IMG/VR virus record: IMGVR_UViG_3300009091_000034
Span: 1 to 37,962 of that record
Strand: one strand, 5' to 3'
Source: a virus
DNA: 37,962 nucleotides
The notes below the pieces were generated by a model. That model was not told the origin of the DNA, did not search any database, and saw nothing but the letters and a program-made list of their open reading frames with translations. A program made the position numbers and the translations under genes. Positions 1,344-29,094 of this stretch are shown here, in pieces. Within the stretch, counting starts at the first letter, position 1; each line of letters opens with the position of its first letter.

Positions 1344-2247
1344 TTATGGGAAGGTTTATACTCACGGCAGTAAGTATGTCTATGAGGTTTTTAATGGCCC
1401 TGTAGTTGTGCAGGAAAAAGTCGATGGCTCTCAGTTTTCTTTTGCTATCGTTAATGACGAGCTAGTATTTCGCAGCAGAAAGCGGCAGATGGATTGTAAT
1501 GATTATGAGCAAATGTTTGAGAAAGGTATCAAGGCATTAGAGGAAATCAAAGACCAGTTAATGAGGGGTGTAATTTACCGGGGGGAATACCTACAATCTC
1601 CTAGACATAACGCTCTTAAATATGACAGAGTACCTATCCGCAACGTTATCTTGTTCGACATTGAGGATTTGTCGATAGGAGACAACTATTATCCTCCTGA
1701 ATTTGTCCAGAAAGAAGCTGAAAGATTGGGTTTAGAGTGTGTGCCTACATATTTTGAGGGTAAGTGTGACTCTCAATTTCTTCTGCAATACCTGGAGAAG
1801 AAACCTATCCTTGGTGGGGAACAAATTGAGGGGGTTGTTGTCAAGAATTATGCTATGCCTGATGCATCGGGAAAATTTCTTAAAGCCAAGATGGTTAGGT
1901 CAGACTATAAAGAAATACAAACTACCGAATGGAAGAAGGCTCATGCCTCTGGAAAAGACGTTTCCTGGCAGATTGTATTAGCTCTGCGTACAGAGGCTAG
2001 ATGGAACAAAGCAGTACAACACCTTAAAGAAGAGGGAAAACTTTTGGATGCTCCGCAGGATATCGGCAACTTAATCAAGGCTGTCAATCTTGATGTTCTT
2101 GAAGAAGAAGCAGACGAGATTAAAGAAATTCTTTTCAAGCACTATTGGAAGGATATCTCTCGCGGTATTACCCGTGGTCTTCCAGAGTGGTACAAGCGTA
2201 AATTGATGGGCATTGACATTGGTATTGACCCAGAGAAGGGAGAATAA
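1333..2247 (+). CDS. RNA ligase, Rnl2-like nucleotidyltransferase family
   Basis: A 304-residue ATP-dependent ligase of the covalent nucleotidyltransferase superfamily. Motif I is EKVDGS, with K29 as the expected AMP-accepting lysine. Motif III-like residues lie around VILFDIEDL, motif IV is EGVVVKNY (about 166-173) and motif V is LKAKMVR. These are the landmarks of the RNA ligase domain typified by T4 Rnl2, and the length suits that family. The C-terminal part (about 200-304) is helical and would be the substrate-specificity domain. Known relatives seal nicks in RNA, often repairing tRNAs cut by host defences; that role is inference here. It overlaps the upstream glycosyltransferase by 11 nt and shares one base with the endolysin start (TAATG). 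Confidence 0.85.
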   Translation: MIHDYGKVYTHGSKYVYEVFNGPVVVQEKVDGSQFSFAIVNDELVFRSRKRQMDCNDYEQMFEKGIKALEEIKDQLMRGVIYRGEYLQSPRHNALKYDRVPIRNVILFDIEDLSIGDNYYPPEFVQKEAERLGLECVPTYFEGKCDSQFLLQYLEKKPILGGEQIEGVVVKNYAMPDASGKFLKAKMVRSDYKEIQTTEWKKAHASGKDVSWQIVLALRTEARWNKAVQHLKEEGKLLDAPQDIGNLIKAVNLDVLEEEADEIKEILFKHYWKDISRGITRGLPEWYKRKLMGIDIGIDPEKGE

Positions 2248-2912
2248 TGGCAAATATATTGACACCAGAACAATTAGCCTTGGTTTGTGCTAAGGCAGGA
2301 TTTCATGATGAATACTTGGTGATTGCTGTAGCTGTAGCTCTGGCAGAATCAGGGGGAAATGCCCTAGCAATAGGGGACAATGGTATGAGTTTTGGTCTTT
2401 TTCAAATCAATGCTCATGCACATCCTACTTTGATTCCTGGTTGGCAGCATGATACCGCCCCAGAAAAAAACATAGCCAATTGTACAGCTAAAGTAGCATG
2501 GTATAATCCATTTACTAACGCAGGATTTGCTTATAAAATCAGCGGAGGAAAGAACTTTAAGCCTTGGTCAGTCTACATACATGAAACCTACAAGAAAAGA
2601 ATGGAACTAGCAAAAACAGGGGTAGCTAAATACCTTGCTAATCCTGATGCTGTACCAGCACCTAAAATTGTAGCACCTACATTGACTAGTACACCTACTA
2701 AACCATATCTAAGACAAGGTTCTACAGGCTCTTACGTAAAAATCCTACAGGAGAAATTAAATAGCGCAGGATACACACCTAAACTGGAGGTTGATGGTAT
2801 ATTTGGCCCTTTAACTCTCGCCGCAGTTAAATGGTTCCAAGCTAAGATGCAAATTGATGTAGATGGTATTGTTGGACCTATTACCTGGGGGAAAATAGAT
2901 GCCTTACATTAA
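2247..2912 (+). CDS. endolysin: lysozyme/transglycosylase-like domain plus peptidoglycan-binding domain
   Basis: A 221-residue two-domain cell wall hydrolase. Residues about 5-130 form a lysozyme-like fold: ALAESGGNA carries the likely catalytic glutamate E34, and GDNGMSFGLFQIN is the typical substrate-cleft segment of the lysozyme/SLT superfamily. A proline-rich linker (about 135-152) leads to a PG_binding_1 domain (about 153-219), with LRQGSTGSYVKILQ and VDGIFGPLTLAAVKWFQ as its signature. There is no signal peptide, so export would need a holin; two tiny membrane proteins lie just downstream. It starts inside the upstream stop (TAATG), with AGAAGGGAG before it. Lysis enzymes usually sit after the tail genes, so this position between an RNA ligase and sugar genes is unusual. 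Confidence 0.88.
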   Translation: MANILTPEQLALVCAKAGFHDEYLVIAVAVALAESGGNALAIGDNGMSFGLFQINAHAHPTLIPGWQHDTAPEKNIANCTAKVAWYNPFTNAGFAYKISGGKNFKPWSVYIHETYKKRMELAKTGVAKYLANPDAVPAPKIVAPTLTSTPTKPYLRQGSTGSYVKILQEKLNSAGYTPKLEVDGIFGPLTLAAVKWFQAKMQIDVDGIVGPITWGKIDALH

Positions 2913-3171
2913 AGCAGCGTACCGCATAGATTTAAACGTTGGTCTTAATGAGCTTTATGACCAATTAGATTTTCTTATAGACAAATATCCTAATGACAAA
3001 AATGGAATGCTTACATACCTCATTTATATGTTAGTAAATGAGTATTATTTTGGTAGTTTTGAGAGCTACTCAGACGGGATAAAAGTGTTAGAGTGTGCTA
3101 AGATGGAATTCTATAGAAAGAGAGTAGCTCCATATGAGGATTTAAAAATCGAGGAGCATGGAGATATCTAA
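2899..3171 (+). CDS. DUF6899 family protein
   Basis: A 90-residue protein that I recognise as the DUF6899 family from its conserved ends: it begins MPYIKAAYR and ends with VLECAKMEFYRKRVAPYED followed by KIEEHGDI. The family is common in phage and metagenome genomes and has no established function. The body looks alpha-helical, with no signal peptide and no membrane segment. It overlaps the endolysin by 14 nt and is followed immediately by a small membrane protein. The position inside the lysis-like stretch does not by itself assign it a lysis role. Confidence 0.75.
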   Translation: MPYIKAAYRIDLNVGLNELYDQLDFLIDKYPNDKNGMLTYLIYMLVNEYYFGSFESYSDGIKVLECAKMEFYRKRVAPYEDLKIEEHGDI

Positions 3172-9916: not shown

Positions 9917-10128
9917 TGAGTTGTCCCCGGTGTAGTAAAAATCACTACAATACTTTTAAAATTAACCGATATAATATAGTGATGCCAGTTAATAAGTGCC
10001 TCATTTGTGGGTTCTTATGGATTGAAGACAAAGATATACTTGGAGTCAAGGGATTGGCGAAAGCCGAGTCGAAGAAAATATTTATAGACACACTTAGGAA
10101 CATGGGGAAGTATAATGACACAAGCTAA
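9916..10128 (+). CDS. small zinc-ribbon protein (70 aa)
   Basis: A 70-residue protein starting in the upstream stop (TAATG) with TGGAGGAAG as ribosome binding site. MSCPRC and CLIC (about residue 28) make a zinc ribbon, followed by a basic helical tail (GLAKAESKKIFIDTLRNMGK) that could bind nucleic acid. It overlaps the large terminase gene by 14 nt. In many phages the small terminase occupies this slot, but there is no helix-turn-helix typical of that protein here, so I do not name it so. It looks related to the preceding gene. Confidence 0.62.
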   Translation: MSCPRCSKNHYNTFKINRYNIVMPVNKCLICGFLWIEDKDILGVKGLAKAESKKIFIDTLRNMGKYNDTS

Positions 10129-12625
10129 ACTATCATCTGTAGCTTTAGAAAAGATTGTTGACAAAATTGTTGACCTTTCTCAGTATATGGGGGAGGTTAA
10201 ATTTTACCCCTACCAATTACCATTCGCACGAAGACTCACTCAGAGTCTCGTAACCAATGAGGGTGCAACCCTCACCGCCTTATTTTCCCGCCAATGTATC
10301 GCAGAAGATACGCTTATTATGAATAGAAATGGCCTTGTCATGCCTATTCAAAAACACTCTGACGCATGGAAAACAAAAGAATTAGCAGATATTTATGAGA
10401 TAAAAGTTAAGGGGGGACATGTTATCCGCTGTACAGAAGAACACCCTATCTCAACCCCAGAAGGATTTGTTCCAGCGTTCTGCCTTAAAAAATATGACAA
10501 AGTAATTGTCCTTGATAAATGGGATAAATTTGGGGATGGGATTGTGCCTCTTGATAATGGGGGAAGCCTTTTTATAACAGGTAGTTTAGCCGAGTTAGTA
10601 GGCTGGCTTACAGTCTACATCGGGAGGAGTGAGGAGGTAAAGATAAAAGTTGGTAAAGATAGGATTAACCCTATTCTTGAGTCGTTCTTTCCTGACTGTA
10701 AAAAGAGAGTCACCAAGAATACAATAACTATAACCATTAGTGGAACCCTCAAGAAATTTCTCAAAGCAATGAAGTTCAATTCCGATGGGTTTCCCGAGAA
10801 TGTTAACTTCTTTACCAAGGCCCAACTAATACGTTTCTTTTACCCTCTATTTCTTATCCAAGGAAAGAGCTATAAAAAACCGAGGACTGTCAAAACTATC
10901 CTTAAGGGAAGAAATGCACGATACCTGGAGTTTTGTAAGGAGCATTTGAACAAGCTAGGGCTACATGGGGCTGTCGATGTTTGGATAGGGGATTGCTTGA
11001 TTTTTCAAGCATCAAGAAATTACCAAAGAATGAAAGAGCTATTTGGAGACTTACTTCCAGAGAATTACTTTCCCCCATTATATATTCCAAGAAAGCATGT
11101 AGATAGAAGTTTTGAAGGCCCAGATGGAGAGATATTAACAGTTGCTCAAGTCTATTCAGTTAAGAAACTAGATGAACAAATGCCAGTCTGGGATACTACC
11201 ATTGAAGATAAGGGATGGTTTTTAGCTTCTGGTATTAAAGTACATAACTCAGGAAAAACCCAAGCTGTAGCTATGATTACTGCTGCTTGTATGGTGGTCT
11301 TACCATCTTTAGCTGAGAAGTTTCCAGACCAGTTTGGTATGTTCATAAAAGGATTCTGGGCAGGATGTTTTGGTCCTATTGGTGAGCAGGCAGTAACGAT
11401 GTTTGACCGCGTTCATTCTGTATTCACTACTGATAACAGTAAGAGGCTATTTATTGAAGAGTTAAAGATGCCTATTCCCGCGCAGGGGGGAGCAAGAGGA
11501 AACTTAATTAGACTTAGAAATAAGTCTTTTATTCGGTATCAGTCTGGGGGTAAGAGAGCTAAGGTAGAATCCAAGACATACCATCTTATCATCTTAGATG
11601 AATGTCAGGATATGGAAGCCTTTAAAATCCGCAAGAGTATCATCCCTTCTGGTGCAGCAGTAAACGCTACCATTGTTGCTACAGGAACTCCCGATATTTA
11701 TATCGGATACTTTTACGATACTATCGAACAGAACAAGATTCTTGATATCACAAACCCAGGACAAAGCCACTTTGAAGTTGACTACCTTACTGTGCAGAGA
11801 TACAACCCAATGTACAAGAAGTTTATTCAGAAAGAAATTAAACGATTAGGGATAGACTCTGATGAATTCAAGATGGCGTATAGACTGATATGGCCGATTA
11901 CAAAAGGGATGGTATTTAGTAAGGCTCAACTAGAGGAAAAGGCTTACGATAAATCCTTAAAAGTTGTAAAAGAATACAAAGAAACTCCGTGTATAGCTGG
12001 GCTGGATTTAGGAAAAAGCCAAGACTCTACTGTAGTCACCGTACTAAAAGTAGATTGGAATGAGGCAGACGAAGAGGGGAATGTACCCAAACAAATTCTT
12101 AACTGGTTAGAATTAGAGGGAGATAACTGGGAAGACCAGTATGATAAGGTTGTAGACTTCTTAAGTAACTATTGGATTGAGACTTTAGTTTGTGATTCAA
12201 GCGGTGTAGGCGACCCTGTAAGGGAACATTATGCTGTTCTTCTTCCTCAAATTAGCGTGGTTCCTTTTGTTTTCAGCCCAACAACTAAGGATATTGGCTA
12301 CAAGTATTTCATTCAGGAAGTAAATAGTAGACGAGTAGTAATCCCTGCTCATCCTCACGTAAGAGACACGAAGAAGTTTAAAAAGTTTGAGCAGCAAATG
12401 ACCACTCTAAAGAAGAAATATAGCGGAAAGTTTTTAAGTCCTACCTCTGTAGATGAAGAGAAAGGTCACGATGATTATCCTGATTCTCTTATGCTTGCGG
12501 TTTTCGGAACCTACTATGAAATAATGCCAGAGATTGAAATTGACGATAATGATATTTATAAGACCTATAGAGATCATAAGGATTTTTTTGGAAAATCTTA
12601 TGCTGATATTATTAGAAGGAGGTGA
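10115..12625 (+). CDS. terL: large terminase subunit (TerL), interrupted by an intein
   Basis: An 836-residue precursor; without the 318-residue intein the mature protein is 518 residues, a normal TerL length. The intein splits the Walker A loop: residues LFSRQ (56-60) rejoin with SGKTQ (379-383) to give RQSGKT. Downstream are Walker B LIILDECQDM (D495, E496), motif C ATGTP (about 522-526) and the RNase H-like nuclease residues AGLDLGKSQD (D631), VCDSSGVGD (D694) and GHDDYPDSL (D786-D790). TerL cuts concatemeric DNA and pumps it into the prohead through the portal. The start has GGGGAAG 5 nt upstream and overlaps the small zinc-ribbon gene. The only GATC found in the window lies near its 3' end. 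Confidence 0.93.
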   Translation: MTQAKLSSVALEKIVDKIVDLSQYMGEVKFYPYQLPFARRLTQSLVTNEGATLTALFSRQCIAEDTLIMNRNGLVMPIQKHSDAWKTKELADIYEIKVKGGHVIRCTEEHPISTPEGFVPAFCLKKYDKVIVLDKWDKFGDGIVPLDNGGSLFITGSLAELVGWLTVYIGRSEEVKIKVGKDRINPILESFFPDCKKRVTKNTITITISGTLKKFLKAMKFNSDGFPENVNFFTKAQLIRFFYPLFLIQGKSYKKPRTVKTILKGRNARYLEFCKEHLNKLGLHGAVDVWIGDCLIFQASRNYQRMKELFGDLLPENYFPPLYIPRKHVDRSFEGPDGEILTVAQVYSVKKLDEQMPVWDTTIEDKGWFLASGIKVHNSGKTQAVAMITAACMVVLPSLAEKFPDQFGMFIKGFWAGCFGPIGEQAVTMFDRVHSVFTTDNSKRLFIEELKMPIPAQGGARGNLIRLRNKSFIRYQSGGKRAKVESKTYHLIILDECQDMEAFKIRKSIIPSGAAVNATIVATGTPDIYIGYFYDTIEQNKILDITNPGQSHFEVDYLTVQRYNPMYKKFIQKEIKRLGIDSDEFKMAYRLIWPITKGMVFSKAQLEEKAYDKSLKVVKEYKETPCIAGLDLGKSQDSTVVTVLKVDWNEADEEGNVPKQILNWLELEGDNWEDQYDKVVDFLSNYWIETLVCDSSGVGDPVREHYAVLLPQISVVPFVFSPTTKDIGYKYFIQEVNSRRVVIPAHPHVRDTKKFKKFEQQMTTLKKKYSGKFLSPTSVDEEKGHDDYPDSLMLAVFGTYYEIMPEIEIDDNDIYKTYRDHKDFFGKSYADIIRRR
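10295..11248 (+). other. intein in the TerL Walker A motif, with degenerate LAGLIDADG region
   Basis: Residues 61-378 of the terminase precursor. Block A begins CIAEDTLIMNRNG with C61 as the first splicing nucleophile. Block B is HVIRCTEEHPISTPEG, with the T-x-x-H pattern (T107, H110). Block F is VWDTTIEDKGWFLASGIK and block G ends VHN at 376-378, followed by extein Ser379. All splicing residues are present, so it should be active. Between blocks lies about 150 residues where a LAGLIDADG endonuclease normally sits: LAELVGWLTVYIG (158-170) and IRFFYPLFLIQGKS (239-252) keep the helices, but the acidic residue at each helix end is missing (VYI and Q249). The homing endonuclease is therefore probably inactive. 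Confidence 0.9.
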
Positions 12626-19214: not shown

Positions 19215-19664
19215 ATGGCTCAAAAAATTTATGTAACAAACGCACCTGAAACATTTCGAGTTTATTTACCGTGGGAGAAAGATGAAGCAGAAGGAGACAA
19301 GACTTGGTTTGAGCATCGCAAAATGACCGAAGCTGACTACCAGAAGTTTGTTGATTTGACTTCAACAGTTAAATTAGCGAACGCTAGGAAAAAAGGTAAG
19401 GAAGACGATAAAGCAGAAGTCGATATGATGTTGGGAACTACAAGAGCATTTCTAGTTGAGAATCTAATTGTTAACTGGAATGTTATTGGAGAAGATAACA
19501 AAGTATTGGCTGTTACACCGAACAACATTAAGAAGCTACCCCCAGAGATTGTTAGGGTTTGGGTTGATGACATTTATGACAAAAACCCAATTCTAAAGAG
19601 TGAAGAAGAAGATGAGGGGGACAAGGTTATAGTTGCTGATGGGAAATCAGTCCCTTTAGCGTAA
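19215..19664 (+). CDS. tail assembly chaperone, short form (gpG-like)
   Basis: A 149-residue protein placed between tail tube and tape measure, as are tail assembly chaperones. It has an N-terminal beta-rich part (IYVTNAPETFRVYLPWEKDE), a helical core (YQKFVDLTSTVKLANARKKG) and an acidic tail (LKSEEEDEGDKVIVADGKS). It carries a CCCTTTA slippery heptamer six bases before its final codons. Normal reading gives this short form; slipping gives a longer fusion that ends at 19927. The short form normally coats the tape measure while the tail grows. The ribosome binding site is AGGAGGA. Confidence 0.82.
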   Translation: MAQKIYVTNAPETFRVYLPWEKDEAEGDKTWFEHRKMTEADYQKFVDLTSTVKLANARKKGKEDDKAEVDMMLGTTRAFLVENLIVNWNVIGEDNKVLAVTPNNIKKLPPEIVRVWVDDIYDKNPILKSEEEDEGDKVIVADGKSVPLA

Positions 19665-19927
19665 TTCTAGAAGACCAAGTATTAGCACTATTACAGGGGC
19701 AGGAGTACGGAGAATATCCGCTCCTGCCCTCTGTTCGACAATGGATAGATTGGAAGTTAACAAATGTACTTCCAAAAGCAGGTGGAACGTTAGACCAAGA
19801 CCCGGTATTTATGCGAGATTTGAGAACCATACAAAGTCTTGAAGGTAAGATGACTGAAATGGAACGTAAGAAAGCAGAAATGGCAGCAAAGATTAAATCT
19901 GGCGCAACGAAAGGGAGGAAAAAATAG
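19640..19927 (+). CDS. -1 frame extension of the tail assembly chaperone (gpGT-like)
   Basis: This frame has no start of its own but is open from 19640 to TAG at 19925 and reads as a normal protein: VILEDQVLALLQGQEYG, LPSVRQWIDWKLTNVLPKAG, then a basic helical tail (TEMERKKAEMAAKIKSG). It is entered by slipping at CCCTTTA (19652-19658): the product is residues 1-148 of the short form followed by 89 residues from AGC at 19658, 237 in all. In lambda and many siphoviruses the T part recruits the tube protein to the tape-measure complex. Its stop overlaps the apparent ATA start of the tape measure (ATAG). Confidence 0.82.
   Translation, partial: WEISPFSVILEDQVLALLQGQEYGEYPLLPSVRQWIDWKLTNVLPKAGGTLDQDPVFMRDLRTIQSLEGKMTEMERKKAEMAAKIKSGATKGRKK
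19652..19658 (+). promoter_or_regulatory. programmed -1 frameshift slippery site CCCTTTA
   Basis: In the chaperone frame the codons read GTC CCT TTA, so C CCT TTA is a perfect X XXY YYZ heptamer. It is the only one between the -1-frame stop TGA at 19637-19639 and the zero-frame stop at 19662-19664, the sole interval in which a shift would produce the extension. Confidence 0.8.
19697..19729 (+). promoter_or_regulatory. strong RNA hairpin downstream of the slippery site
   Basis: GGGCAGGAG (19697-19705) pairs with CTCCTGCCC (19721-19729), and inside it CGGA (19708-19711) pairs with TCCG (19717-19720) around a GAATA loop, leaving a two-base TA bulge. It starts 38 nt after the slippery heptamer, further than the usual 5-9 nt, so a stimulatory role is uncertain; there is no T-run, so it is not a terminator. 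Confidence 0.6.
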
Positions 19928-22900
19928 CTGATAGAGAATACAAATTAATTGTTTCTTTAAAAGACAGAGCCTCTGCACAGGCAAGAATATTGCAGAGAAA
20001 TCTGCAAGGTCTTAATGCTAATTATAAGACAACTGTAACTATGGGGGTTGTAGATAACATCACCCCTAGACTCGGCATTATAGCTAGAGCCTTTGATGCA
20101 ATCCGTTTAAGGAAAGTTGTTGACGTTTCTGATTCTGACGTAAATAAAGTAGGCAGACTAAAAAATCTTATTAGTGGCATCTTCAATAGTGGGGATGGCA
20201 AAAGATGGTATGATAAGACCTTTGGTTATCTGGACAGTTTAGCAAAGAAAGCGGATAAATGGGCAACAATATTTGTTGGAGCATTTGCCGCAGCCGGGGC
20301 TGTTGGAGCTATTGCAGCTATTGGCGCAGGAATACCAATAATTGGTAAAAACCTAGTCAAAGTCAACAGCGAAATGGAAACGTGGACTGTTTCCCTTCAA
20401 ACCACTCTTCACTCACTTACTGCCGCAAAGAAAGAAATGGCAGATATAGTACAATTCGCTAAGGAAACTCCTTTCCAGATTAAACAGATTACTGAAGCAG
20501 TAGTAAAACTATCTGCTTATAATATGGACACTAAAAAATGGTTAAAACCATTAGGAGATATGGCTTCTGCATTTGGTAGAGATATCACCGATGCAGTAGA
20601 AGCTGCCGCAGATGCAATGACTGGTATGTTTAGACGAGCATTGTCCTACGGGATTAAAATGGAACGCGCTGACTTTAAAGCAGGCGGTAAATATGCAGGC
20701 ATGACTTATGCTGATGCGTTTTTGATGGAAGTAGAGAAGAGATTCTCTGGTGGTATGCTACTTCAATCACAGACGCTTAAGGGGCTTTGGTCAAATATTA
20801 AGGATGCCTTATATATTGGGTTCCAGCAAGCTACGGCACCAGCATATGCTTTAATTAAAAATGAAGTTAAAAAACTTTATGATGTATTAAGCGATGCAGC
20901 TACCCAGCAGAAAATTGTAGACTTTTTCTCTAAATTTAGTGACCTTCTCTATAAAGTAATAGGGGCTGTTCACAACTTCTACAATTATTTTAAAGCTCAC
21001 CTTCTTCCAATGCTTTTAGCACTTGGGAAAACTTCATGGTCAATATTTCAAGTTGTTGCTCAAATGGCAAAAGACCTTCTTGAGCATACTCTTGTACCAT
21101 TACTAACAGTAGTTTCAGAAGTAATAACTCTGTTTGCTAGATTACTCGGTGTAATCCAGCCCGTATTAAAATACCTCATAATGATTGGGGTAGCAGTTAA
21201 GATATTCCAGCTTCTTAACCTACACGTTAGTAAAACAGCGACAAGTATGGTAGCTGCTGGAAAAGCCACTAGCGTATTTGCAGCATCAATGAAAATGTTA
21301 GCTACAAGAGTTGCTGTTTTAGCAGCCTCTTTTGCTGCCTTATGGGTAATAAGTAGCTGGCTTGAAGTAAGAGATAATATAAAAGAAATCGGTAATGCTT
21401 TTGATGATGCTGCTGGTGGGGCTGGAAGATTAAAAGAATATCTTCAAGATTTAGGTGACGTTTCTGGATTTTCTCTAAAAGATATGACTAAAGCGGCTAT
21501 GGTCGCTAAAGAGTATGGCGACAATATGACAAATGCCTTAGAGATAGGAACCGCTGCTGCCGCAGAAGCTCAAAAAGGGTTTGCACCTAACTTAAATCTT
21601 CCCCCAGAAGAGGCTGTTAGATTAGTTAGTGAATTATCTAAGGCAATGATTAGAAATGGTGATACGCAAGCAGAAATGCGGAAGAAAACACTAGAAGCCG
21701 CAGGAGCATTAATATACTTCCAAAATAATGTTGATAAAACAGGGGTTACATTCAATAATTTCTCTACAAATATGGAGAGATATAGTGAAGTAGTAAGAAT
21801 GTATGGGGATAATATCTCAGAGCTTACTGATTTAATTACTCTATATGGTAAAGCTATGAAAGAAGCTAATGAGTCAACAAATATTAGCCCATTAATGGAA
21901 GCTATTGAAATGCTTATGCATCCAACTACAGATATGCTTCTCACTCTTCCTATAGATACCTGGATTAGCCATACTACAGACCAATTAAAAGACATGGAGT
22001 ATGTCTTAAATAATATGGTTCCTCCAGAACTTATGCAAGAAGGAAGAGAAGTTGAAAGAATGGAATTCATTAAGAGCATGAAAGATAAGGCTCTATATAT
22101 TGAAGAGTTAATGAAGGAAGCTGGCAAAGGTGGAGAAACCATTGCTCAAGCAGGAAAAACTATGGTTGATGATGCCCGTCAAGTAAGAGACTATATGAAA
22201 GAAGCAGCAGATTATGCCAAGCTATCACTTACTGGCCCATCTGCTACAGCACGACAGATACTAGAAACTCAACAATCAGGACTTCCTATAGCTCCCGCAG
22301 TAGGAAAAACACTAGGAACAAAAGCAGCCGAAGAATCCTATGATGATGTAGCTTCTGCAATTATTACAAGTGCAGGTATCTTAGCTGCTACATATACAGC
22401 ATTCAAAATACTTAACAAAACCACAATAAAAATTGCTGGGTATGTAAAACAAACCGCCGTGGACCAATACAGAATAAGAACAGAGCCAATAGTTGCGGCT
22501 AGAGTAGCAAAAATGCTTGCAAAACAGCCAGAAGTTCCTGAATGGGAACAAATGATGAATCTACGTGGTGCTGGTAATGTTAGATGGGCAAGATTAGAGG
22601 CTCGTAGAACAGCCCAATCTTATCCTAAAGATATGACCAAGCGTATAGAATATAGCATGAAACAACAAACCCAAGCTATAGAAGATTTGGGAAAGAAAAG
22701 AATAGCAAAACTAGAAAAGCAACTAGAAAAAGCTAATGCAAATCTAGCAAAATTATATAAACGGTCTTCCGAATCCTTTAAACCACTTACTGCCAGATGG
22801 ACTGGTACTATGTGGATTGATGAGATAACAGAAGAAATTGAAACTCAGATGCTACGTATGATGGATGAAGTAGCAGGACCAGTTGAACCCTTCTATGGGG

Positions 22901-25900
22901 GTATGTTAGATAGAATTAAGGGTGTTGTAGCTCAACAGCAATTAGTAAGAAGACAATTTTCTAATCTAAGAAATTTAAAAGAGGATGACATAGAAAAAGC
23001 TGTTCTTAAATATAGTAAAGAAAGACTAGGTTATGGAAAAATAATAAAACCTGGATATGAGACTGAAGATTACTTTATAGCCAAAAGAAAAGAAATAAGA
23101 ATTGCTACAATGAAAGTAGAAGAGGCTGAAACTGCACTAGCCTTAGCTAGAAATGATATTACTAGACAAATACAAGAACTACAAAAAGCACATCTTGAAT
23201 TAGTAGATGCTATTAAGAATAAGCATGTTCCCGCACATATGAGAAGTTTTGCTGATTCAATAGTAGACTTAACTAAAGACTTAAAAGAGGCTTATAAAGA
23301 CTTAAATGCATTCAGTAAAAAGGCACCAACAGCAGCGAAAGCAGTACCTAGTACGGGAAGAAGGATTATTGGTTCTTCCATAATTACTGGTCTTCTTGAT
23401 GCCCCAGCATGGAGAAATATAGGTGCGCTATTCACAAGAGGATTCAACCTTAAAAATGCAAGAACAACCACAGTTAGCGCCGAAAGAATCATGGGTGATA
23501 TCGACGCAACTAGAGATATAGAACTAGCAAAAAGTCGAGTCTTTACCTTAACAGTCATGCGCGCTTGGACTAAGCATGTTGTTGCTCCACTTAAACAAGT
23601 TTTTGGATTTTCCAATATCACCAAAGGAATCAAAGGGCAAGGTGGAGCAATAAGTCTTGAACCCTTAGCAGTTATAGTTGATAAAGTAACTGGTGCTTTC
23701 AAAAGACTCTATAAAGAACAAGGTGGATATATAAGATTTGGGGACGAGTTTGAAGTAACCCAAGACTTGATAGACCTTAGAGAAAAAGCTAAAGATTTCT
23801 TCGGTAAAACCCAAGTTAAAACAGATATGGGAGGTTATTTACGACTCACTAATCCTAAAATGCCACTAACTATGAAAGATTTCTTAGCAGAAAATGGAAA
23901 ACTAAGTAAAAGCTTTGGTAATTTAGTTGACAAAATTGCAAGATTAAACCTAGTATTTAAAGGTGGCTATGGAGGGTCAATATATAAGAGGGTAGTTACT
24001 TTTGAAGAGGATTTTGATACTCTATTTGAACATCTTTCTACTTTAGGACATGAAATAGGGCATGATTTAGAAAGAGGCACCGTTAAACAACTTGGACAGC
24101 CTAGACGACCCAGAATAGACTATTCTCTAGATTGGGAAGAACGAGAAGCAAAATATACTGCGGATTTGGCAAGATATGAAAGACAATATAAAGCCTGGGA
24201 TAAGTCTCTTACTAGAGGTACACAAAGCGCACTTGGAAGAATGCGTATAAATATAGGAAAATTAGATGAAGAAATTCTTAAGGATGCCGTTAGAACACAA
24301 GAAGTTCTTGAACAAGAGATAGCATTACTTAGACAAGAACAACAGGCTTGGAAAGCAGGCTACAATATATTTAAAAAGGCCGCCGCTAATACACCAGAAT
24401 TAACTAGACAGTTTGCTGTAGATGCAGTTAAGAGTTATGGTGGTTATTTTAGTGCCGTAGTAAAACATTTTGTTGCGGCAGGAAAAAGTGGGCGTGATAT
24501 TCCAAGAGAATTACGTCCAACAGTTTTGGCAAGAAATATTATGGATAGGGGTGGCCTACAAAATGAACCATTACCACAGTACCGCACCCCTACAGGAGTT
24601 AGAGTAAAGCCCTTTAAATTAACGCCCGTTGATACAATACCCCAAAAAATGATAGCACAACTAAAAAATCTCTTAAAAGATGAGCGTGGAGCTATAGGAT
24701 TAGGAAAAGAAGCTAAATTAACTCCAGCTATAGAAAAACTAGAAAAAACCTTAACAGAGATTAGTAGTAAACAGGGATTCATAATGGGAAAAGTTCCTCC
24801 TGATTTTGCTGTTAGAGCATCGACACAGATAGCCCCCGATAATCTACTGGGTGAATGGCAGAGAGAGGGCTGGGTAACTACAATTTTTGGCAAAAACATA
24901 GCTGTAGATAGAGAAAATGTAAATAATATAATTAAAACTCTTGAAAAGGGACAAAAAATAGAAAAGAGAATTCTTTTAGAGATAGACTCAATTGGAAATA
25001 TAAGACTCGCAGACGGAAACCATAGAACTATTGCAGCTTATGAAAAAGGAGTAAAAGAATTAAAGGTAGAGTTTCGTAAAGATTACGCAGGAAGAGTACT
25101 AAGTAGGGGAGGAGTGTTTCCCGGAGAACTCCCTAGTGTCTTAGAACTTAAAGGGACTTCTTTAGGAGATAGATTACTAAGACTATTTAAAGATGAAAAA
25201 GGAGCTATCAGTTTAAAGGGGATAGAGAGTATATTCACTAAACTTACTGATACCACTCAAAAACTAAATGAGACTCTTAAAGGATTAACCTCTACTATCA
25301 AAGAATCTATTACAAAACTTCCTTCTATACTTACTCCAGGAGGAAGGGCTGCTAGAGAAATGGGGGCTATGTTTGCCCCTGAAGCAGAAATTTTTGGTAA
25401 GTTTTTAAAGCCATTAAGAGAAGTAGCAGAAGAAGCAGATATCTTTGGCCTTATTGGAAAAGATGCAGAGAGGTTCTTTAGCACGGGAGCTAAGGATATA
25501 TTTGTCCCCGCAGTTGAAAATGCCGCTAAAATAGCTGCTACACAAGCTGCGGAAGCAGCAGTAAGAACTTCTTTTGGAGAGGTATTTCCAAAAGGATTAG
25601 GCGCACTTATGAAAACTGCTCCAATGAAAGCAGTTGGTGCAGCTACAGCAGTTACTATTCCTATAGATATCTTAAGATTGATTCAATGGGGGTATGGTGG
25701 AAAAGAGAAATTCCAGCAGGCATACATGGGTGAGAACTATGAAAATCCAGCAGCAAGAGCGGCTGAAGATGTAAAAGTGGCCTTTATGACAGGACTATCA
25801 GATGCTATTGGTGGATTTTCTACAGCATTTCTTGCTGCGGTTCCAGCATTAGTAGTGCCTCAAGTTAGAGGATTCTTTGTAGACCAGTTAGAAATGGGGG

Positions 25901-28900
25901 CTAAAGCTTTCCTTGATATGATTAAAGCCCCTCAAGAGATACTTTATGAGGCATTCGCAGAACAACTTAGGTTAACAATGCACGAAAAAGAACTTGAAAA
26001 AATAGCAGAATGGAAGCAAACACATCAAGAAGAATACTATCAAAACTTAGAGAATCTCTACATTCAGAATGTTAAAAATATGCCTGAAGGATTCTTAAAA
26101 TTTGAAAAGCAGCTTGGTATTTTAATCGCCAAAGCAGCAGGAACAGAATTATCAGCATATGAACAAGGACAAAGAGCAGCCCAAAGAACAAAACTTGGTC
26201 TACCTATTACAGCAGAAGAAGCTTTACGAGGGCCAGCATATCAGGCACCCCAACCAAGTTTCCAAGAACAAGTGTATGCTCAGAGAGAAGCACAAAGACA
26301 AGCACAGCGAGAATTGCCAAATATTCCTGGTACTAATTACAATATGGAACAAGCAATAGAGCTACTAAAAGAATATGATGCCGCATATAAGAAACTAAAT
26401 ATAACCATAGAAGAACAAACCGCAAAATCTCAGGAACTAGAGATACAAATAGGTAATTTGAACCATGAAATTCAAGGTTTAACTCTTGAACTTAATAATG
26501 CTACTAGCATTATGAGTAGAATTTCTGGCGTGTGGGATTTAATGGAAGCTATAAATGAGACACAGCTATTCTCGGATTCTACTTTAGCCTTAGAGTCAGA
26601 AGTTGCCAGATTAAATGTAAGACTTGCTGAACAGCGGTCTGCTTTACAGCCTTTACAGGAACGTCTACATGCTGTTACTAGTCAATTTGACCGTGTAAGT
26701 GAGAAAATTAGTAAGGCCCAAGAAGACCTTGATAACTTCCTCAATCCTAAAATTGCTGGGGAAGGGGTTTATCAAGACCAACTCTTTGCAATTGATAAAC
26801 AACTAAATGCTTTACAACGGAAAAGGCTAGACTTAACTCTATACTTAAGGTCACTAGAAGAGGCAGGCTTAGGAAATACTGATATCTACAGACAAGCTGC
26901 TGCACCACTTCAGGCTATAGATGACGAGATAGCTAAACTACAAAATGATAGAGACAAAATTGAGTTAGATAGAAAGATTGCAACTCAAGATATAGTGCAT
27001 TGGCTTGAAAAAGAGCGTGATACCCGTGAGGAAATGAATGAGTCTGAGATTAAAGCGGGAGTTAGAAAAGCTAAAGCAGTATTAGCAGCCAACAAACCAC
27101 TATTAGAAATGTATAAAAGACAAAAAGAAGCTATTGAAGAACAAATTAGAAGACAAGAAGAGTCAATACAAAGAACAGAAGACCACATAGCTAGGCATCA
27201 AAATGAACTTGACCTAATTAATGCAAAAGTAACCGCTGATAACGCAGAAGTAACAGCTATGAAGAAAAAGGCAGAGTGGCAAAAACGGATTGCAGATTTA
27301 ACAGGACAAATTAATGATAGTCAAATGGTTGCAGCCGCATATGCATATGCTTCTGGAACCATGAGTAGAGAGCAGTTTCAATCGCTCTACTCTGTGTATG
27401 TTCAAGCCGCAAATAAAGCTGCTCAACTAACAGCAGAAATAGAGGGAAAACAAGGAGAAGTAGCAAAAGCAACCTTTGATAAAGACACTATAGATAGATT
27501 ACTCTCAGAGAATCAGAGTGCGGCCTCAGAATTACAGGCTAAAATAGTTGGCCTTACTGATGCTATTAATGCTCTAGTAGCAGGGGTTAGTGTAAAGGGT
27601 CTGGCTGGAACTACCCAAGAAGCATTAGAGAATGTTTTCGGAAAAGGTGTAGCAGCTAAAATAGATTTAATGGTTGGTTATTTAGCTGAAGCTGCTGGAA
27701 GACCAATTCCTCCAGGAATAAATATGGGTTCAGCAACCCAAAAACTTGCTACTGCACATGCTGAACAAGCTGTAAGTGATGCTTACGCTGGAAAAGTTCC
27801 CTTCTCAGAGGGATGGTCTAATGCAAAAACAGGAGTAGCAGATGCAGGACATGCTGCTGAGATAGCTGCTGGAAAATTTGCAAATGTAAATGCTGTAATT
27901 GCAACCACTAAGGACACAGTAAGTACTAGCAATACTACAATGACAGAATCCGGGAGAAAACTAGTAGAAGCTTGGCAAAGAGCTTATGCTAATATGGCTA
28001 CAAGTAATACCAAACTTGATACCTCAAATGCTACTACTAGTAAAAATGCAAGCGCACAATTCTTAGCTATGCAGGCCCGTCTTAATGAGCTTGATAAAAC
28101 TGCTGCAACTACAATGCCAAGTGTTAACAAGAGTGTTCAAACAGGAATTGGTGCTGCCGCAAGTGCAAATGTAGGCGCTTTCTACACTTTAGGAAGAAAT
28201 ATTCTAAATACCTTTGCAAAAGGTTTAGGATATACTATTCCTACTGGAATTGGGGCTGGAACTAGTGGGGGAGTTAGGGCTGGTGGGGAAGGTCAATCAC
28301 TTCCTAATGTAACACAACTTGCTGGTGGGCCAGGACAGATGATGCAGAATGTACTCTCAGATATTCTTAATCGTTCTAATCTCAGCAACTATATAACCAT
28401 GTTTCCTAACTACCCTGTAAATACAGGAAATGTAAACACAAATAAGACATACGAACCTGGACATTTGCAGCCAGAAGCAGGAATGGTAATAGAAGCACTA
28501 AAGAACGCTTTTGGTCCCATTAGTTATGGTGGTAGAGCGAGTCGTACTGGTGGTTATGTATCACAACATCCAGTAGGACTTGCTGCTGACTTATTCTCCA
28601 ACAAATCAAAGATGGACCAGTATGCTAATTGGTTAGCTGCTAACTTCAACACTCTTAAATTAAGATATATTATCTGGAACAATAGAATAACGAGTTCTGG
28701 AGCTAGAGGATGGAGGGCTTATACTCCCCCAGCAGGAAAACCAAATACTCCTACATGGAGACATGAAGACCATGTTCATGTAAGTGTAAAAGACTGGATT
28801 CCTGGCGACCCTTATGTTCAGAGATTTCATTCAGGAGGAATTACACCAGGAGCTAGATTCCAAGAAAGTCTTGCATTACTTCGTGGACAAGAAGCTGTAG

Positions 28901-29094
28901 TACCACTTGAAAGTGGCGCAATACCTGTTAAAATAACAAAGAGTGATAATGAGACAATCATAAACAACTACTTTGATTCAGGAGCTTTTAACTTTGAAGT
29001 ACGTAATGATAAAGAGTTGGAAGAACTTAAAGCATTCTTACTTAAACTACTTAACAATCAGAACCCATATAAATTTAGTCCATTCAATGCTTAA
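19924..29094 (+). CDS. tape measure protein with embedded protease-like, ParB-like and LAS-peptidase-like domains
   Basis: A giant protein of 3056 residues if started at ATA 19924 (5 nt after GGGAGG); the first canonical start, TTG 19990, has no ribosome binding site and would remove the typical opening ADREYKLIVSLKDRASAQ. Order: tape measure N-domain with FAKETPFQIKQITEAVVKLS (about 175-195); hydrophobic segments near 113-140, 410-430, 455-475, 810-830 and 1955-1985; helical regions; a GHEIGH zincin-like motif (H1376, E1377, H1380); a ParB-like segment with DGNHRTIAAYEKG (about 1697-1709); long coiled coil (about 2140-2520); LAS-type peptidase domain (about 2845-2965: H2882, D2889, H2947, H2950, H2952); then the usual GG-rich tape measure end. 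It sets tail length and is ejected during infection. Confidence 0.88.
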   Translation: MADREYKLIVSLKDRASAQARILQRNLQGLNANYKTTVTMGVVDNITPRLGIIARAFDAIRLRKVVDVSDSDVNKVGRLKNLISGIFNSGDGKRWYDKTFGYLDSLAKKADKWATIFVGAFAAAGAVGAIAAIGAGIPIIGKNLVKVNSEMETWTVSLQTTLHSLTAAKKEMADIVQFAKETPFQIKQITEAVVKLSAYNMDTKKWLKPLGDMASAFGRDITDAVEAAADAMTGMFRRALSYGIKMERADFKAGGKYAGMTYADAFLMEVEKRFSGGMLLQSQTLKGLWSNIKDALYIGFQQATAPAYALIKNEVKKLYDVLSDAATQQKIVDFFSKFSDLLYKVIGAVHNFYNYFKAHLLPMLLALGKTSWSIFQVVAQMAKDLLEHTLVPLLTVVSEVITLFARLLGVIQPVLKYLIMIGVAVKIFQLLNLHVSKTATSMVAAGKATSVFAASMKMLATRVAVLAASFAALWVISSWLEVRDNIKEIGNAFDDAAGGAGRLKEYLQDLGDVSGFSLKDMTKAAMVAKEYGDNMTNALEIGTAAAAEAQKGFAPNLNLPPEEAVRLVSELSKAMIRNGDTQAEMRKKTLEAAGALIYFQNNVDKTGVTFNNFSTNMERYSEVVRMYGDNISELTDLITLYGKAMKEANESTNISPLMEAIEMLMHPTTDMLLTLPIDTWISHTTDQLKDMEYVLNNMVPPELMQEGREVERMEFIKSMKDKALYIEELMKEAGKGGETIAQAGKTMVDDARQVRDYMKEAADYAKLSLTGPSATARQILETQQSGLPIAPAVGKTLGTKAAEESYDDVASAIITSAGILAATYTAFKILNKTTIKIAGYVKQTAVDQYRIRTEPIVAARVAKMLAKQPEVPEWEQMMNLRGAGNVRWARLEARRTAQSYPKDMTKRIEYSMKQQTQAIEDLGKKRIAKLEKQLEKANANLAKLYKRSSESFKPLTARWTGTMWIDEITEEIETQMLRMMDEVAGPVEPFYGGMLDRIKGVVAQQQLVRRQFSNLRNLKEDDIEKAVLKYSKERLGYGKIIKPGYETEDYFIAKRKEIRIATMKVEEAETALALARNDITRQIQELQKAHLELVDAIKNKHVPAHMRSFADSIVDLTKDLKEAYKDLNAFSKKAPTAAKAVPSTGRRIIGSSIITGLLDAPAWRNIGALFTRGFNLKNARTTTVSAERIMGDIDATRDIELAKSRVFTLTVMRAWTKHVVAPLKQVFGFSNITKGIKGQGGAISLEPLAVIVDKVTGAFKRLYKEQGGYIRFGDEFEVTQDLIDLREKAKDFFGKTQVKTDMGGYLRLTNPKMPLTMKDFLAENGKLSKSFGNLVDKIARLNLVFKGGYGGSIYKRVVTFEEDFDTLFEHLSTLGHEIGHDLERGTVKQLGQPRRPRIDYSLDWEEREAKYTADLARYERQYKAWDKSLTRGTQSALGRMRINIGKLDEEILKDAVRTQEVLEQEIALLRQEQQAWKAGYNIFKKAAANTPELTRQFAVDAVKSYGGYFSAVVKHFVAAGKSGRDIPRELRPTVLARNIMDRGGLQNEPLPQYRTPTGVRVKPFKLTPVDTIPQKMIAQLKNLLKDERGAIGLGKEAKLTPAIEKLEKTLTEISSKQGFIMGKVPPDFAVRASTQIAPDNLLGEWQREGWVTTIFGKNIAVDRENVNNIIKTLEKGQKIEKRILLEIDSIGNIRLADGNHRTIAAYEKGVKELKVEFRKDYAGRVLSRGGVFPGELPSVLELKGTSLGDRLLRLFKDEKGAISLKGIESIFTKLTDTTQKLNETLKGLTSTIKESITKLPSILTPGGRAAREMGAMFAPEAEIFGKFLKPLREVAEEADIFGLIGKDAERFFSTGAKDIFVPAVENAAKIAATQAAEAAVRTSFGEVFPKGLGALMKTAPMKAVGAATAVTIPIDILRLIQWGYGGKEKFQQAYMGENYENPAARAAEDVKVAFMTGLSDAIGGFSTAFLAAVPALVVPQVRGFFVDQLEMGAKAFLDMIKAPQEILYEAFAEQLRLTMHEKELEKIAEWKQTHQEEYYQNLENLYIQNVKNMPEGFLKFEKQLGILIAKAAGTELSAYEQGQRAAQRTKLGLPITAEEALRGPAYQAPQPSFQEQVYAQREAQRQAQRELPNIPGTNYNMEQAIELLKEYDAAYKKLNITIEEQTAKSQELEIQIGNLNHEIQGLTLELNNATSIMSRISGVWDLMEAINETQLFSDSTLALESEVARLNVRLAEQRSALQPLQERLHAVTSQFDRVSEKISKAQEDLDNFLNPKIAGEGVYQDQLFAIDKQLNALQRKRLDLTLYLRSLEEAGLGNTDIYRQAAAPLQAIDDEIAKLQNDRDKIELDRKIATQDIVHWLEKERDTREEMNESEIKAGVRKAKAVLAANKPLLEMYKRQKEAIEEQIRRQEESIQRTEDHIARHQNELDLINAKVTADNAEVTAMKKKAEWQKRIADLTGQINDSQMVAAAYAYASGTMSREQFQSLYSVYVQAANKAAQLTAEIEGKQGEVAKATFDKDTIDRLLSENQSAASELQAKIVGLTDAINALVAGVSVKGLAGTTQEALENVFGKGVAAKIDLMVGYLAEAAGRPIPPGINMGSATQKLATAHAEQAVSDAYAGKVPFSEGWSNAKTGVADAGHAAEIAAGKFANVNAVIATTKDTVSTSNTTMTESGRKLVEAWQRAYANMATSNTKLDTSNATTSKNASAQFLAMQARLNELDKTAATTMPSVNKSVQTGIGAAASANVGAFYTLGRNILNTFAKGLGYTIPTGIGAGTSGGVRAGGEGQSLPNVTQLAGGPGQMMQNVLSDILNRSNLSNYITMFPNYPVNTGNVNTNKTYEPGHLQPEAGMVIEALKNAFGPISYGGRASRTGGYVSQHPVGLAADLFSNKSKMDQYANWLAANFNTLKLRYIIWNNRITSSGARGWRAYTPPAGKPNTPTWRHEDHVHVSVKDWIPGDPYVQRFHSGGITPGARFQESLALLRGQEAVVPLESGAIPVKITKSDNETIINNYFDSGAFNFEVRNDKELEELKAFLLKLLNNQNPYKFSPFNA

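Follow-up and report, generated by a model that had tools for sequence, protein, structure and literature searches.

A zincin-like HEXXH motif alongside ParB/sulfiredoxin-type and M15-type domains in the tape measure protein of an uncultured siphovirus

What is the signature of a zinc protease doing inside a phage tape measure protein (TMP)? The question comes from an IMG/VR record of an uncultured siphovirus, analysed here over its whole length of 37,962 bases (the window); IMGVR_UViG_3300006224_000012 (57,308 bases) is a near-identical copy, with 99.98-99.99% DNA identity over the shared part. The tail open reading frame concerned (19990-29094, + strand), which encodes TLGHEIGHDLERG and SLDWEEREAKYTADLARYE in frame, has its first ATG, GTG or TTG codon at 19990 (TTG), giving 3,034 residues, and residues are numbered from there. 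The original prediction took the gene for the tail tape measure, and this holds: the N-terminal part of the protein matches three PHROG tape-measure families, and genes for a tail tube protein and a tail-assembly chaperone pair come before it. Homology with the TMP of a sister phage, G004, reaches upstream of the TTG (IADREYKLIVSLKD versus IIDRELRFVVSLKD), and therefore the reading frame extends further upstream. The gene thus probably occupies 19924-29094 (+ strand), with a non-AUG start, AUA at 19924, and an SD sequence, GGGAGG, at 19913-19918. At this site (19924-19926) G004 likewise has no ATG, GTG or TTG (ATC/ATA), and a second sister phage, G009, has ATG. Such a non-AUG start, recurring among these phages, could limit how much TMP is made.

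An HEXXH motif had been reported at 23980-24140, and we found it present and in frame as HEIGH (H1354, E1355 and H1358; nt 24049-24063, + strand), the sole HEXXH of the 3,034-residue protein. The residue numbers first given to it (H1376/E1377/H1380) fit the AUA start at 19924 but are 22 above those of the TTG count. By itself HEIGH is mildly unlikely and hence weak evidence, because at least one HEXXH arises by chance in 2.1% of composition shuffles of the window TMP (P = 0.02). Sister phages were then reached via the capsid gene, and G004 and G009 are the only two with complete TMPs (2,205 and 2,275 aa). Each of these has one HEXXH and no more (HEFMH at 1230 for G004, HELGH at 1648 for G009); they hold 13 and 15 histidines, and shuffles yield the motif in 0.4% of cases (P about 0.004 each). 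The two sister segments are 33% identical over 102 aa (E about 1e-8), are the best conserved part of the sister TMPs outside the ruler blocks, and both keep HEXXH followed by E-x-x-A-W. Because they are related, their two motifs are not independent evidence of each other. HEXXH was absent from nine of nine other TMPs (T5 pb2, P23-45 gp96, three relatives from GenBank and four from IMG/VR), a control that is modest because some of these TMPs are short. The accompanying statement, that enzymes of other kinds are usual in tape measures, agrees with this set, in which T5 pb2 is without HEXXH, P23-45 gp96 has an M23-type motif and the seven others have none.

The occurrence of HEXXH in both sister TMPs strongly helps the case for a zincin, and of the possible identities a zincin-type metallopeptidase is the most likely one; zinc binding and catalysis by the domain are inferred. 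If HEXXH had arisen by chance in a helical stretch of the tape measure, with no metallopeptidase behind it, this would fit the shuffling result for the window TMP taken alone, and the region is without family or fold support. Set against the motif in both sisters and in none of the nine other TMPs, we regard this explanation as distinctly unlikely.

The searches on the zincin-like region (residues 1219-1460; 23644-24369, + strand) covered families, folds and other genomes. The original prediction had looked to profile searches against zincin families for support, and these gave none: there was no match in Pfam, NCBIfam or PHROG, searched with the whole TMP and with segments, or in PDB. For Peptidase_M78 (PF06114) the near-identical contig gave no match even when E was allowed to reach 10, and hmmscan gave none; MPTase-PolyVal (PF18818) did not match the TMP sequence; a genome search with the PF18818 model adds little, because the model matched nowhere at all. 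A single-sequence AF2 model of residues 1219-1460 places a helix, two strands, the HEXXH helix and a further helix around the motif at low confidence (pLDDT 45), and a model of the sister G009 domain from three sequences is all-helical (pLDDT 58, pTM 0.61). The window model is thus neither a plain coiled coil, the outcome that was to have overturned the earlier reading, nor a confident zincin. Foldseek returned no significant fold match for the window or sister models; weak matches to a peptidase of a Bacillus phage and to 3c37, a putative Zn peptidase, fell short of significance and were left uncounted. Searches of phages and plasmids with tblastn gave chance matches only, those in Rhizobium plasmids being rejected as relatives since they run antisense to a gene, and a DNA search of phages gave no match. 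A degenerate HEIGHD scan of viral contigs recovered ImmA proteins of phages and, besides these, frames that were unrelated or spurious, with no further TMP, and two genome-collection scans found no relative.

Do the window and sister zincins form one family? In unconstrained global alignments of the window with G004 the HEXXH motifs superpose (Z about 3, P 0.004-0.012), a score that is partly due to the motif itself. A profile of the two sister zincins does not detect the window domain, scoring below zero bits on it, and we therefore rejected the one-family claim as unproven; the two domains may have diverged extremely or have been acquired separately. The modules have nearly the G+C of the remaining sequence, and base composition gave no sign of recent transfer.

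The window domain has some likeness to ImmA/IrrE (M78) in its GHEIGHD core, a strand-rich stretch before the motif helix and an E-x-x-A 26-27 residues past the second histidine. The resemblance goes a little further than the motif, its score being reached by 43 of 2000 shuffles that kept the motif. It differs from ImmA/IrrE in having no PF06114 match at E = 10 and in being embedded in a TMP. A third zinc ligand had been predicted downstream of HEXXH, and candidates do exist, but spacing and sister alignment pick different glutamates. Phage ImmA spacing points to E1384, the glutamate of E-x-x-A, 26 residues past the second histidine of HEIGH (E1384-R1385-E1386; 24139-24147, + strand), a candidate chosen by reading and spacing only. 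Alignment with the sister E-x-x-A-W points instead to the area of E1397 (24178-24180, + strand), near an A-W pair at 1402-1403 that is common to the sister zincins. Such ambiguity would suit a zincin-derived domain that is now inactive, a structural remnant or an inhibitor-like domain, but HEXXH is intact in three of three TMPs despite their strong divergence, which makes that reading very improbable.

Comparison with the sisters also revealed how the protein is built. The N-terminal 670-950 residues of the window TMP match the sister TMPs at 37-43% identity, and the coil at about 2104-2604 and the C-terminus match as well; against G004 the matching blocks are residues 1-946, 1061-1129, 2126-2604 and the tail. 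The section that holds the zincin-like region and a second domain has no sequence match in the sister TMPs. The protein can thus be described as conserved ruler blocks (about 1-920, 1061-1129, 2104-2604 and the C-terminus) that are interrupted by a putative cargo section. In the G009 TMP (L080) the C-terminal coil block (window 2104-2569) follows immediately on the N-terminal block and precedes the zincin. As judged from the order of matching segments, ruler modules are apparently rearranged between G009 and the window.

The second domain of this section (24829-25113, + strand) is of the ParB/sulfiredoxin superfamily, with DGNHR at 25012-25026. The DGNHR segment aligns with a phage polyvalent protein, L035, and with a protein of Acinetobacter phage nACB2, whose matching stretch matches a ParB-like PHROG. 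A profile of these three sequences matches chains of SbnI, which has a ParB/Srx fold, at a best E of 0.0048 with DG-HR aligned. The DG-HR motif was found in the strand and helix context of the ParB/sulfiredoxin superfamily; ParB_N (PF02195) had no match at E up to 10. The window domain would be at most a divergent member, and a DGNHR-type motif was not found in the sister TMPs.

Short GAI(S/G)L repeats flank these domains: GAISL at residue 1219 (23644-23658, + strand) precedes the zincin, GAIGL in KDERGAIGL at 1567 (24688-24702, + strand) lies between the zincin and the ParB-like domain, and GAISL in KDEKGAISL at 1738 (25201-25215, + strand) follows the latter. As a speculation, they may mark linkers or a cleavage site. 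KDERGAI failed as a general marker of polyvalent linkers, its sole outside match being a terminase-like protein.

Near the C-terminus we found a third enzyme domain, of M15 peptidase type (28480-28824, + strand), which matches PDB 9flh (E = 3e-6). It carries both the SxHxxGxAxD motif of family M15, as SQHPVGLAADL (H2860, D2867), and the C-terminal HxH, in HEDHVHV. The motif was not found in the sister TMPs, and the domain is probably a peptidoglycan hydrolase. The earlier account of the enzymology of this TMP thus gave a plausible zincin but overlooked its ParB/Srx neighbour and the M15 peptidase.

Proteins are what HEXXH zincins normally cut. With the M15 domain of the window TMP already a candidate for cutting the wall, the zincin more likely acts on protein. 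A real zincin working on the wall or envelope, the role suggested for the T5 pb2 metallopeptidase motif, would nevertheless find some support in the absence of an M15 motif from the sister TMPs and in the T5 motif being reported as muralytic (PMC10038345). The T5 protein is a tape measure that undergoes proteolytic maturation, being cut after R1127 (PMC10038345), but its motif is C-terminal and it is without HEXXH. Together with the M15 domain, a peptidoglycan-binding domain in the 810-aa tail protein and the usual protein substrates of HEXXH zincins, this leaves a wall enzyme improbable.

Thermus phage P23-45 gp96 is, like the window TMP, a giant TMP carrying enzymes; its cargo differs, being a virion RNA polymerase fused to the TMP, and its metallopeptidase is M23-like (HRGYD at 3162), with no HEXXH. 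A closer comparison is with polyvalent proteins. Virion or injected phage proteins that combine zincin, DdrB-type ParB and DD-peptidase domains have been described, with the proposal that the zincin cleaves the chain ahead of packaging or once it has been injected (Iyer et al. 2017, PMC5512222). In such multidomain proteins the zincin would serve to process or to arm what is injected. Like the polyvalent proteins with MPTase domains (P1 DdrB, N4 virion RNAP), the window TMP is a huge multidomain virion protein, and it has the same domain set of HEXXH zincin, ParB/Srx-type domain and wall peptidase. It also brings together, in a single virion-associated chain, several enzyme domains unrelated to one another, with M15 and ParB/Srx supported and the zincin probable, and its gene lies in the tail gene cluster. 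It differs in that it matches no MPTase-PolyVal or DdrB-ParB Pfam model, and the polyvalent proteins of Iyer et al. are not described as tape measures (the word 'tape' is absent from PMC5512222). L035 (about 3,152-3,153 aa) has the same order as the window TMP, zincin and then DGNHR domain. The gene (L035:1070-10528) encodes a typical polyvalent protein, with an HEITH zincin motif, the DGNHR ParB-like domain and a DNA methyltransferase domain. What is new here is that the proposed zincin and ParB/Srx cargo section sits in a tape measure and not in another injected virion protein.

On these grounds we propose, as a reading that is quite possible though short of probable, that the protein is a polyvalent tape measure, with a zincin that cuts the TMP itself or releases the cargo. 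The TMP would sit in the tail tube and be ejected at infection, delivery into the host cell being expected for TMPs from the literature. The M15 domain, inserted near the C-terminus, would help to breach the wall, and the zincin-type metallopeptidase would cut the TMP between modules, after ejection or earlier in tail maturation. The cut could free the ParB/Srx domain, and perhaps the zincin too, for the inner membrane or the cytoplasm. Self-cleavage and cytoplasmic delivery are likewise inferred.

The more likely substrate is the TMP itself, with a host protein second. ImmA-type proteases cut regulators, and a real zincin might likewise act as an effector that, after ejection, cleaves not the TMP but some protein of the host, for instance one of defence or regulation close to the membrane. 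During injection TMPs come into contact with host proteins of the inner membrane, and the SNIPE defence is directed against TMPs (PMC13190303), so a protease on the TMP would be well placed; such a role is also listed by Iyer et al. (PMC5512222), and the window zincin is slightly ImmA-like. But that resemblance is marginal, the effector has no known target, and processing is the usual proposal for large injected phage proteins, so we hold it unlikely.

Extending the polyvalent reading to the sisters, the TMPs may share a recurrent cargo slot, in which sister phages acquired different zincins, and here a ParB/Srx domain too, the protease freeing cargo during ejection and the ruler serving as an effector-delivery protein. 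We consider this generalization rather doubtful. If the polyvalent tape measure is real, tape measures would rank with the injected polyvalent proteins in bringing enzymes along as cargo, and TMP processing, a process known in lambda and T5, would gain a protease candidate. A protease or nuclease-like domain would also be ideally placed against early host defences, since the TMP is one of the earliest phage proteins to arrive at the inner membrane.

Several neighbouring genes were also noted. The tail-assembly chaperone ORF (19215-19664) ends at a slippery C CCT TTA (19652-19658), where a predicted -1 shift would carry translation on into another ORF, which stops at TAG 19925-19927. This is an arrangement of the G/GT type, and in both sister phages the ORFs are laid out similarly. 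Within the ORF for the terminase large subunit (10115-12625, 836 aa) there is an intein N-terminal splicing region (TIGR01445, above cut-off). An RNA ligase-like gene (1333-2247) and a glycosyltransferase-like gene (315-1343) lie upstream of the genes for packaging.
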